This document shows positions 12,159 through 15,106 of a DNA stretch of 32,520 nt, piece by piece. Under the pieces are notes generated by a model. That model was not told the origin of the DNA, did no database searches, and was given only the letters and a program-made list of their open reading frames with translations. Source of the stretch: an uncultured Subdoligranulum sp. (lineage in GTDB: Bacteria > Bacillota > Clostridia > Oscillospirales > Ruminococcaceae); assembly GCA_904390925.1 (NCBI GenBank), contig CAJFMB010000017.1:1-32520 (forward strand), read 5' to 3'. Numbering within the stretch: the stretch's first letter is position 1; every line of letters starts with the position of its first letter. Position numbers and translations under genes: made by a program.

Positions 12159-13079
12159 TTACTGGGCGTCGGCCCAGTCGTCGTCCTCGTCGTCCCAGTC
12201 ATCCCCGCCGCCCTGGGCACCGGCCACGATCTCGGTGATTTCCTGGGTAATGGCGGTCTGACGGGCGCGGTTGTACTCCAGCTGCAGATTCTTCAGCAGC
12301 TCACGGGCATTGTCGGTGGCGGTGTCCATGGCCATCATACGGGCGTTCTGCTCGGAGCAGAAGGACTCCACCAGCGTGCCCAGCAAAAGCCCTTTTAGGT
12401 AACCCGGCACAATGTGGTTGAGCACGTGTGCCGGCGAGGGCATATAGGTCACTTCCCGGACCATGCCGCCGTCGGTTTTCTGCCGGGGCTGCCAGGGGAA
12501 GGCGTCCCGGTCCAGCGGCAGCAGCTTGAGAATCTTGGGTTCCAGCGTCATGGGGGTGACCATCTCGGTGTAGACCACGTACACCTCGTCCAGCTGTCCC
12601 TGGCGGAACAGCTGCACAAAGGTCTCGGCAATCTCCCGCGCACGGTAGGCCGTGGGGTCCTGGGCGGTGTACATGAACTCGACGTCAATGTCAACGCCCT
12701 TGTGGCGGAAGTAGCTGCGGCCCACCTGACCGATGGAAAACAGCGTCGTGTCGTCGAACTGCTTCATGTGCTCCTCGGCCAGGCGCAGGACATTGTGGTT
12801 GTAGGCGCCTGCCAGACCCTTGTCGCCCGTGATGATGATGTAGCCCACCTTGTGGTGCTTGTTGGGGCGGCGGTCAAAGTAGACGTGCTCCACGTCCTGG
12901 GTGCGGTGCAGAATGTCCGAAATGGTCTGCTTGGTCTTGGTAAAGTAGGGCTGGATGTTGGTCAGCTGCTGGCGCGCCTTGCGCAGCTTGGAGGAAGAGA
13001 TCAGGTACATCGCGTTGGTGATCTTCAGCGTCTGCTGGACGCTGTCGATGTGGGTGCGGATCTCCTTTATGCTTTCCAT
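12159..13079 (-). CDS. atpG: F1 ATP synthase gamma subunit with acidic C-terminal tail
   Basis: This 306-residue rotor shaft starts with MESIKEIRTHIDSVQQTLKI and has the conserved ITGDKGLAGAYNHNV segment and the C-terminal helix MMAMDTATDNARELLKNLQL and TAITQEITEIVAGA. Family members usually end at that last point (E. coli type EIVSGAAAV). Here the chain continues with GGGDDWDDEDDDWADAQ, 17 residues with nine acidic ones. The gamma C-terminus normally lies inside the alpha-beta hexamer near its membrane-distal end, so the tail should reach the crown where delta sits. The start codon lies inside the 3' end of the delta-alpha gene (13-base overlap), so translation is coupled. Confidence 0.95.
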   Translation of the reverse strand: MESIKEIRTHIDSVQQTLKITNAMYLISSSKLRKARQQLTNIQPYFTKTKQTISDILHRTQDVEHVYFDRRPNKHHKVGYIIITGDKGLAGAYNHNVLRLAEEHMKQFDDTTLFSIGQVGRSYFRHKGVDIDVEFMYTAQDPTAYRAREIAETFVQLFRQGQLDEVYVVYTEMVTPMTLEPKILKLLPLDRDAFPWQPRQKTDGGMVREVTYMPSPAHVLNHIVPGYLKGLLLGTLVESFCSEQNARMMAMDTATDNARELLKNLQLEYNRARQTAITQEITEIVAGAQGGGDDWDDEDDDWADAQ

Positions 13080-15106
13080 TTGGCGCTCACCTGCTTTTTG
13101 TAGCTGTCCAGCGTGGTGCGGATCTGCTCGGTGGCGGTGCCGGACAAAGCACCGGTCTCATCGATCTCGGTGATCAGCGCCGGCTGTTCCCGCTCCAGCA
13201 GGTCAACAAAGGCATTGGAGAAGCTGTTGACCTCCTCCACAGGCACATCCGACAGCAGGCCGTTGGTGGCAATGTAGAGAATCACTGCCTGACGGCTGAC
13301 TGCCATGGGGGTGCAGCGGGGCTGACGCAGCAGCGCCATCATCCGCTTGCCGTGGTCCAGAGCCTTGCGGGTCTCGGGGTCCAGGTCGGAGCTGAACTGG
13401 GTAAAGACTTCCAGCTCGCGGTAACGGGCCAGGTCGATACGCAGGGTACCGGCGGTCTTTTTGATGGCGCGGGTCTGGGCGGAACCACCCACACGGGAGA
13501 CAGACAGACCCACGTTGACAGCCGGGCGCTGTCCTGCATGGAACAGGCCGGTTTCCAGGTAGATCTGACCGTCGGTGATGGAAATGACGTTGGTCGGGAT
13601 GTAGGCCGAAACGTCGCCGGCCTGGGTCTCGACGATGGGCAGTGCGGTCATGGAACCGCCGCCGTACTCCTTGGTCAGGCGGCAGGCACGCTCCAAAAGA
13701 CGGCTGTGCAGATAGAAGACGTCGCCGGGGTAAGCCTCACGGCCGGGAGAACGGCGCAGCAGCAGAGACAGGGTACGGTAGGCCACTGCGTGCTTGGACA
13801 GGTCGTCGTAGACGATCAGCACGTCCTTGCCGTGGGCCATGAAGTATTCGCCCATGGCGGCGCCGGCGTAGGGAGCAATGTACTGCATGGGAGCACCCTC
13901 GCCGGCGGGAGCCGCAACGATGGTGGTGTAGGCCATGGCGCCGTACTGCTTGAAGGTCTCGCGCAGGCGGGCAATGGTGGACTCCTTCTGACCGATGGCC
14001 ACGTAGATGCAGAGCATGTTCTGGCCCTTCTGGTTCAGGATGGCGTCCACGGCGATGGCGGTCTTGCCGGTCTGACGGTCGCCGATGATCAGCTCACGCT
14101 GACCGCGGCCGATGGGAACCATCGAGTCGATGGCCAGAATACCGGTCTGCATGGGCTGGTTGACCGGCTCACGGCTGATGACGCCGGGAGCCTCGTGCTC
14201 GATGGGGTAACGCTCGGTGGTGTTGATGGGGCCCAGGCCATCAATGGGACGGCCCAGGGCATCCACGGTGCGGCCCACCATGGCGTCGCCCACCGGCACA
14301 TCGGCGGGACGGCCGGTGCGGCGGCAGAGGCTGCCCTCGGTCAGACCCTCCTGGCTGCCCAGCAGGATGACGCCGGTGCGGTTGCGGCGCAGGTCCAGCA
14401 CGATGCCGGCGGTGCCGTTGTCGAACTCCACCAGCTCGCCGTAGACGGCGCGGCGCAGGCCGCTGACGTTGGCGATGCCGTCGCCGACCTCAATGACGCG
14501 GCCGGTCTCCACGGCGTCCACATCATCGGACTTGCCGGCGATGACCGACTTCATCTGCTCCGAGAGCTTGGAGATGTCGTCGGTGTCGGGGGCATCCTGC
14601 ATGCCCCGGGCCAGACGGTCCAGACGGCCCTTGACACTGCGGTCATAGGTCACGCCGTCCACGTCCAGCACAAAACCGCCCAGGATGGACGGATCAATCT
14701 TGATTTCCAGCACGGCGTTGGTGGCGCCGCGCAGCTTGCAGACAGCCTCACGGATGGCAGTCTGGGTGGCCTCGTCGGGCTGGCGTGCGCAGGTGACCTG
14801 GCACTCCACACCGCCCTGGGCGGCCAGCGCCAGGCGGGAATACTCCGCCATGATGGCGGGCAGCTCGGTCATGGCGTCGGCCTCTGCCACCAGGCCCAGA
14901 AATGCCTTCAGGGCATCCTGGCCGTCCAGCTCGGCGGCGTCGGCCACCAGCTGCTTTTTCTCGGCCGGGCTGACTGCCTTGCTCTGCAGGGCAGTCCACA
15001 GGGTCTTGTTGGCCATCAGGGCGTCAGCGGCTGCGCGGACGGCTTTGGCGTCGGAACCCGCAGCCCCGAACAGGGCAGCGGCATAACGCTGGGTCGTTTC
15101 GCTCAT
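13067..15106 (-). CDS. atpHA: Fused F1 ATP synthase delta-alpha subunit (atpH + atpA in one frame)
   Basis: A single 679-codon frame holds a complete delta subunit followed by a complete alpha subunit. Delta is residues 1 to about 168, from MSETTQRYAAALFGAAG to the family C-terminal block GVTYDRSVKGRLDRLARG. Alpha runs from about M169 (MQDAPDTDDISKLSEQMKSV), with beta-barrel VETGRVIEVGDGIANVSGL, Walker A GDRQTGKT (342-349, or 174-181 counted from M169, close to E. coli numbering), Walker B-type VLIVYDDLSKHAVAYR, and the arginine finger in SVSRVGGSAQTR. Alpha from M169 would be 511 residues, a normal length. M169 (ATG at 14602) has no ribosome site: only a GGGG one base before it. The 5' end overlaps the atpF stop (ATGA) and the 3' end overlaps atpG. 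Delta is normally one per F1 and alpha three, so the fusion raises a stoichiometry problem. Internal initiation or processing remains possible. Confidence 0.95.
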   Translation of the reverse strand: MSETTQRYAAALFGAAGSDAKAVRAAADALMANKTLWTALQSKAVSPAEKKQLVADAAELDGQDALKAFLGLVAEADAMTELPAIMAEYSRLALAAQGGVECQVTCARQPDEATQTAIREAVCKLRGATNAVLEIKIDPSILGGFVLDVDGVTYDRSVKGRLDRLARGMQDAPDTDDISKLSEQMKSVIAGKSDDVDAVETGRVIEVGDGIANVSGLRRAVYGELVEFDNGTAGIVLDLRRNRTGVILLGSQEGLTEGSLCRRTGRPADVPVGDAMVGRTVDALGRPIDGLGPINTTERYPIEHEAPGVISREPVNQPMQTGILAIDSMVPIGRGQRELIIGDRQTGKTAIAVDAILNQKGQNMLCIYVAIGQKESTIARLRETFKQYGAMAYTTIVAAPAGEGAPMQYIAPYAGAAMGEYFMAHGKDVLIVYDDLSKHAVAYRTLSLLLRRSPGREAYPGDVFYLHSRLLERACRLTKEYGGGSMTALPIVETQAGDVSAYIPTNVISITDGQIYLETGLFHAGQRPAVNVGLSVSRVGGSAQTRAIKKTAGTLRIDLARYRELEVFTQFSSDLDPETRKALDHGKRMMALLRQPRCTPMAVSRQAVILYIATNGLLSDVPVEEVNSFSNAFVDLLEREQPALITEIDETGALSGTATEQIRTTLDSYKKQVSAKWKA

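Follow-up and report, generated by a model that had tools for sequence, protein, structure and literature searches.

Natural Fusions of the Delta and Alpha Subunits of F-Type ATP Synthase in Gemmiger and Related Bacteria

Introduction

In a 32,520-nucleotide stretch of DNA from an uncultured Subdoligranulum sp. (GenBank assembly GCA_904390925.1, contig CAJFMB010000017.1, positions 1 to 32,520; the window throughout), the delta and alpha subunits of an F-type ATP synthase are encoded by one unbroken gene, a fused atpH-atpA. The fusion is shared with other genomes of the genus Gemmiger and belongs to a recurrent series in related bacteria. Class I joins a whole delta to alpha, class II (deltaCTD-alpha) keeps the delta C-terminal domain (CTD) and lacks the N-terminal domain (NTD), and class III places a b-like segment (b') before the CTD. 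The chances are about even that the window gene would give a single delta-alpha chain with three deltas per F1, so that more than one peripheral stalk could form, with a raised H+/ATP ratio and the ability to make ATP when the proton-motive force (pmf) is lower.

The textbook rule gives each F-type ATP synthase a single peripheral stalk and an H+/ATP ratio set by the c-ring alone. Ueno et al. have reported an engineered deltaCTD-alpha enzyme that broke this rule (2025; PMC12229609). The natural series, which comprises fusions with the NTD, fusions without it, fusions with b' and NTD-less unfused enzymes, includes a cultured strain, and the existence of natural multi-stalk F-ATP synthases is therefore directly testable. 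The question may bear on fermenting bacteria that live on small ion gradients.

The Fused Gene in the Window and in Gemmiger

The gene is a single frame of 679 codons on the reverse strand (13067-15106) with an ATG start and no internal stop. The Pfam family OSCP matches residues 6-167 of the fused protein above its cut-off, covering profile positions 3-170 of 172, and is followed by ATP-synt_ab_N (200-265), ATP-synt_ab (322-537) and ATP-synt_ab_C (544-667), all above their cut-offs. A preliminary description of the window had read a full delta running without a stop into a full alpha of 511 residues from M169; the frame, the domains and the residue count bear this out. The parts of the gene are as follows.

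13067..15106, reverse strand: fused atpH-atpA, 679 amino acids; delta from residue 1 to about 168 and alpha from about 169 to 679
14816..15106, reverse strand: delta NTD, residues 1-97; six-helix bundle in the AlphaFold2 model, and OSCP match
14603..14815, reverse strand: delta CTD, residues 98-168; from Pfam and alignment with deltaCTD-alpha proteins
14492..14602, reverse strand: junction and alpha N-terminal helix, residues 169-205; the fastest-evolving part, with insertions and deletions
13070..14602, reverse strand: alpha subunit, 511 residues from M169; Walker A GDRQTGKT intact, and Pfam matches

In known enzymes the delta CTD is the b-binding domain, and the alpha N-terminal helix docks the delta NTD. 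The alpha part is complete, with beta-barrel, nucleotide-binding and C-terminal domains and the Walker A motif, and the delta part has both NTD and CTD; the NTD kept here is absent in class II and III relatives. The AlphaFold2 model of the whole chain, built from 18 sequences, has a mean predicted local distance difference test score (pLDDT) of 77, falling below 50 at residues 191-197. It lays out a six-helix NTD (predicted helices 3-16, 20-32, 34-41, 47-56, 64-75 and 79-96; block pLDDT 75-89), the CTD, helices 158-170 and 178-190, and then alpha.

The genus set comprised 35 genomes, taken as Gemmiger from their named relatives. When these independent assemblies were examined for a stop or frameshift at the junction, 15 of the 35 were found to hold an unbroken match to residues 1-679, at 77-100% identity and without stops, and two of the 15 (G026 and G034) are single-contig assemblies. 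A 16th genome (G009) carries a fragment of the fused gene at a contig end, and the named isolate Gemmiger gallinarum DSM 109015 (L038) has delta and alpha in one open reading frame (ORF). Three loci recorded as Gemmiger sp. An87, An50 and An194 (L069, L072 and L088) have operons with separate genes; L069 stands beside Fournierella in the alpha tree, and the genus name may be outdated.

Recurrence of the Fusion in Related Bacteria

The preliminary description has to be widened in one respect, since the window's genome is not alone in carrying the fusion: delta and alpha in one frame were found repeatedly in related genomes, in all three classes. Class I (670-706 codons in the order-wide survey) includes the window, L152, L164, L165, L167, L168 and L170, and also L241 and L242. 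Class II genes, mostly of 579-641 codons, have b directly upstream and no NTD. One class II variant (L157, 1207-3228) contains two OSCP stretches by Pfam, that is, two tandem delta CTDs before alpha. Class III genes (736-784 codons; L182-L191 and L201, Oscillospirales) begin with b', followed by the CTD and alpha. Among the three tested with Pfam, ATP-synt_B passed its cut-off in two and scored below the cut-off in the third; the OSCP match covered positions 96-172 or less in each. A separate b-type ORF lies upstream of the class III gene in 11 of 11 loci (by eye; confirmed by Pfam in L184), and in L188 the first M falls inside that ORF. Reading by eye gave the order a-c-b-[b'-deltaCTD-alpha]-gamma-beta for five class III loci. 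A structure model of class III had a mean pLDDT of 59 and was not used.

From 394 Oscillospirales genomes, 72 with a weak, fused or absent delta were picked and scanned with a deltaCTD-alpha profile. An unbroken fused frame was present in 53 of them (6 of class I and 47 of class II or III); the matches were separate, broken or partial in 11 others, and 8 gave no match. These tallies, and those of the class and phylum below, were counted by hand. At E<=1e-100 the fused gene is the sole F-type alpha in 52 of the 53 fused genomes, several of the 53 being incomplete, down to 62%. The other genome, G426, has two F-type alphas, both fused, and carries a class III and a class II operon (L182 and L160, the latter on contig C36). 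No separate delta was found above the OSCP cut-off in the 47 class II and III genomes; below-cut-off matches exist. All above-cut-off matches in these genomes lie in the alpha frame at positions 88-172, with one exception in G426 that is drawn from position 34 and crosses three stops. An OSCP scan of 12 whole genomes at E<=1 gave the CTD fused to alpha as the only match in G037, G038, G039 and G042, and a complete separate delta besides the fused CTD in G043. A weak OSCP score was dropped as a sign of a missing NTD because some unfused genomes score equally weakly, and OSCP match positions were then re-run on the 53 fused and 8 unfused genomes.

Scans with a junction profile found an unbroken junction in at least 35 of 391 genomes of the class, to which G517 can be added with its junction at a contig edge, and in at least 22 of 398 genomes of the phylum, with G1000 at an edge and five genomes shared with the class count. 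All 20 regions fetched from such matches were fused (18 class II, 2 class I). A further candidate, L091, was rejected as a fusion: delta has an ORF of its own there, in a different frame from the long alpha frame (628) that overlaps it.

Origins of the Fusion and Loss of the NTD

Two alpha trees were built by quick searches, with branch support from the Shimodaira-Hasegawa-like approximate likelihood ratio test only and with many unsupported forks; their change counts take gains and losses together and cannot tell one from the other. The first, with the delta part left out, has 140 rows (171 reduced to 157 by dropping 14 partial or duplicate ids, and to 140 by dropping 17 near-duplicates). It shows 7 changes between fused and separate, at least 6 of which are forced by starred branches. 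The second includes wider matches and has 138 rows, near-duplicates and far outgroups being left out by named drop and skip lists; it shows 12 changes, and its starred branches force no fewer than 8 changes in the separate label, 7 in class I and 5 in class II. In both trees the Gemmiger fusions group as a single clade (100), placed among unfused Butyricicoccus, Agathobaculum and Fournierella, and class III forms one clade (99) in the 140-row tree. Rows of class I and class II are intermixed; loss of the NTD after fusion is one candidate order of events that could account for this. Separate alphas at L212 and L215 (same-class family f36) and at L193 are nested among fused rows; they could be secondary fissions, and for L212 and L215 a transfer is also possible.

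The NTD has been lost in unfused genomes as well. Six of eight re-scanned unfused genomes (G061, G072, G102, G241, G282 and G403) have a stand-alone CTD-only delta of 73-77 codons. Such deltas (L193, L251, L252, L254, L255 and L256; for example, 72 amino acids) sit between b and a separate alpha. In G326 (L250), a 239-codon frame joins b and the delta CTD and alpha is separate, an arrangement that resembles the mycobacterial b-delta fusion without its NTD. The delta of G050 has 161 codons and an OSCP match at positions 86-171. In the trees, genomes with a CTD-only delta were scored as separate where they were included (L193).

Selection and Divergence of the Parts

Selection acts on the whole fused chain. 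Among the 15 Gemmiger sequences (104-105 pairs), median omega was 0.38 for the NTD, 0.285 for the CTD, 0.62 for the junction and 0.20 for the alpha core. Divergence of the parts was compared between 18 Gemmiger-clade fusions and 25 unfused relatives at alpha distances of 0.10-0.14, with pairs that are not independent and come from one clade. The CTD diverged about half as much in the fusions (0.203) as in the unfused relatives (0.413), and the NTD somewhat less (0.348 vs 0.456). The alpha N-terminal helix showed the opposite trend (0.583 fused vs 0.208 unfused), and its excess in the fusions was seen at alpha distances of at least 0.06. In a separate comparison, the NTD/CTD divergence ratio was 1.90 in the fusions vs 1.10 in the unfused relatives.

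An alpha N-terminal motif was present in 76 of 86 separate alphas vs 2 of 71 fused ones, and in 25 of 25 unfused relatives vs 0 of 18 Gemmiger-clade fusions. The motif was picked after the unfused set had been viewed and depends on a single acidic residue, class II retains a helix-like stretch at the site (for example, NIIPLIKETV), and a sign test on 8 independent pairs gave p 0.03-0.06; the contrast is suggestive only.

Proposed Mechanism and Number of Stalks

Ueno et al. have engineered the FoF1 of Bacillus PS3 by deleting the delta NTD (residues 2-104) and fusing the CTD to alpha (PMC12229609). According to that paper, the enzyme averages two stalks and can reach three, a number that was rare in the cryo-EM sample; its H+/ATP ratio was 5.8 vs 3.0, and its equilibrium pmf at Q = 2.5 was 68 vs 133 mV. 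The fused gene of the window would give one delta-alpha chain, and by stoichiometry each F1 would carry three deltas, with every alpha tethering its own. The tether could let each alpha offer a delta CTD to a b2 dimer, and more than one stalk might then assemble, each bringing an a subunit. More H+ per ATP would allow synthesis at a lower pmf, as in the engineered enzyme. Class I enzymes may nevertheless be limited to a single stalk by the NTDs that they keep.

For the series as a whole, we give roughly equal odds for and against multi-stalk F-ATP synthases having evolved repeatedly, through the class I fusion, through NTD loss (in class II and in the mini-deltas that consist of a CTD only) and through class III, in which b' would give each alpha its own covalent membrane anchor. 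Such enzymes could spend up to two to three times the H+ per ATP and work at low pmf.

The main competing explanation is that the chain is fused and the stalk remains single. One delta would dock on the crown and bind b2, the other two would be passengers, and the gain would be guaranteed co-assembly of delta and alpha. We regard this as a serious possibility of somewhat lower probability. It is favored by the NTD, which is retained in the window, folded in the AlphaFold2 model and under purifying selection, and which Ueno et al. argue limits the stalk number to one (PMC12229609). At most one of three NTDs fits the threefold axis, so that two deltas may be idle. These points, however, have to be set against the absence of the NTD in most other fused lineages, the addition of b' in class III and the faster change of the alpha N-terminal dock in Gemmiger. 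Because of this frequent NTD loss, the b' addition and the changed dock, the multi-stalk enzyme is slightly preferred. The intact frame and domains, the recurrence of fusion and the stronger conservation of the CTD in the Gemmiger clade are also counted in its favor.

Besides the retained, conserved NTD, several observations weigh against the multi-stalk reading or the proposed order of events. The excess divergence of the alpha helix is missing at the smallest distances (0.167 vs 0.146). The class I row L168 is basal to class II in the 140-row tree and groups with the separate L091 in the 138-row tree, both placements being starred. The six unfused CTD-only deltas and the b-deltaCTD frame show that the NTD can be lost without fusion, and they weaken the order in which fusion came first and NTD loss later; the two are linked and neither requires the other. 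The late checks on the mini-deltas left the odds of the readings unchanged, weakened the order of events and added NTD-less enzymes to the series. A second F operon is present in 12 of the 15 Gemmiger genomes with the fusion (none shown in G001, G003 and G004), and proteolytic cutting in the fast-evolving linker might still divide the chain.

One Chain or Two

A second alternative is that internal initiation or proteolysis yields mixed products, with free alpha and perhaps free delta, and restores one delta per three alphas. The preliminary description had held that ATG 14602 is an unlikely start for a separate alpha. This view is supported: the codon for M169 is M in only 6 of 15 Gemmiger orthologues and I or L in the others, and junction candidates in class I are far weaker than the gene's own start. 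In a permissive test, based on duplex energy with the anti-Shine-Dalgarno sequence and counting any pairing within 20 bases upstream, the median ribosome-site energy in class I was -11.4 at the own start and -5.7 at the best junction candidate. The corresponding medians were -8.3 and -6.7 in class II and -6.0 and -5.4 in class III, where the best candidate is thus little weaker than the own start. At least one candidate start lies in the junction window in 64 of 71 fused genes, M185 is kept in 13 of 15 Gemmiger orthologues, and the linker evolves fast, with insertions and deletions; all this leaves room for mixed products. On the other side, the junction window of 7 of the 71 genes contains none of the codons ATG, GTG and TTG, and class II and III genomes are without a separate delta above the OSCP cut-off. 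Mixed products are considered unlikely. Gene structure, conservation and the relatives all support a single delta-alpha chain in which alpha lacks a conserved start of its own. Finally, that an assembly or sequencing error removed the stop between two ordinary genes, as might be supposed for a window taken from a 100-contig draft genome, is next to impossible, being refuted by the same unbroken frame in 15 of 35 genus genomes, two of them single-contig, and in the named isolate.

Operon Context and a Companion Operon

The gene order in the window is a-c-b-[delta-alpha]-gamma-beta-epsilon, with b, gamma and epsilon identified by Pfam, beta by its match to an alpha query, and a and c by eye.

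15971..16675, reverse strand: atpB, subunit a; by eye from sequence
15644..15862, reverse strand: atpE, subunit c, 72 amino acids; by eye from sequence
15103..15600, reverse strand: atpF, subunit b, a separate gene; Pfam ATP-synt_B 7.8e-27, with ATG 15591 as alternative start
12159..13079, reverse strand: atpG, gamma; Pfam ATP-synt 1.1e-93
10725..12122, reverse strand: atpD, beta; ORF, with a paralogous match of the alpha query at 10902-12101
10314..10724, reverse strand: atpC, epsilon; Pfam ATP-synt_DE_N 7.3e-24

The tight overlaps described earlier for the flanking genes are present: the b stop TGA is contained in the ATGA with which the fused gene starts (15103-15106), and the gamma start lies inside the end of the fused gene, with an overlap of 13 bases (13067-13079). 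A YitT-family membrane protein (9202-10551, reverse strand) is encoded downstream of the operon and an FGGY-family sugar kinase (18439-20115, reverse strand) upstream.

The second F operon was read in three genomes, namely G000 (contig C57, L105), G022 and G026, and has separate delta and alpha genes. In the C57 operon, which belongs to the window's genome, 'open frame 721' was considered as a second fusion and rejected, the DNA showing separate ORFs in the same frame with a stop between them. The c subunit of the second operon in G026 and G022 (L247 and L249) contains, by eye, a GPAIGEG...ESTGIY segment. The combination of P-x3-(Q/E) with an ESTGIY-type site is one that we take to be the Na+-type c subunit motif; the ESTGIY-type motif was not seen, by eye only, in the c subunit of the window. 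On these grounds H+ is the probable coupling ion of the fused enzyme and Na+ that of its companion, and Gemmiger would thus pair an apparently H+-type fused enzyme with a canonical, apparently Na+-type one.

Comparison with Known Systems

In the unfused relatives Flavonifractor, Butyricicoccus, Fournierella and Agathobaculum, delta also lies upstream of alpha and alpha is about 73-78% identical, but delta and alpha are separate ORFs. In mycobacteria and Gordonia, a b-delta fusion has been described (PMC5709465). It joins a stalk subunit with delta, as class III joins b' and delta in one chain, but its alpha is separate, whereas delta of the window is joined to alpha and b' occurs only in class III. 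The window thus differs from the mycobacterial type in having b as a separate gene, and b-like fusions were found only in class III and L250.

The closest known system is the engineered PS3 enzyme, whose structure (PDB 9JC1) was found by sequence, is the top fold match of the window model and appears in the data section of PMC12229609. The preliminary description, which knew of no described delta-alpha enzyme, has to be corrected on this point, since both this NTD-less engineered fusion and a natural one are in print (PMC12229609). As in the window, the PS3 enzyme carries the delta CTD on the N-terminus of alpha, within a single chain. The PS3 enzyme has three tethered CTDs per F1, and the window enzyme would have the same number. 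Its NTD was deleted and that of the window is retained, so that the window shares the CTD-alpha fusion of the multi-stalk type and not its lack of an NTD; the stalk number and H+/ATP given above are measured values of the PS3 enzyme. Ueno et al. have also mentioned a natural NTD-less fusion in Acidaminococcus fermentans and the UniProt records G4Q3K6 and A0A1I2C5T3, and have suggested that nature may also have multi-stalk enzymes (PMC12229609). By the paper's description, the A. fermentans protein joins delta and alpha in the same make as class II, without the NTD that the window keeps. The Discussion of that paper names this one species and the two records, and the b'-deltaCTD-alpha chain is not mentioned there. 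No report of an NTD-retaining delta-alpha fusion or of a b'-deltaCTD-alpha fusion was found in the open-licence literature. Class II is accordingly a kind already in print (PMC12229609), and what is new, as far as searched, are the natural delta-alpha fusions that retain the NTD, the wide recurrence of fusion and the b'-deltaCTD-alpha chain.

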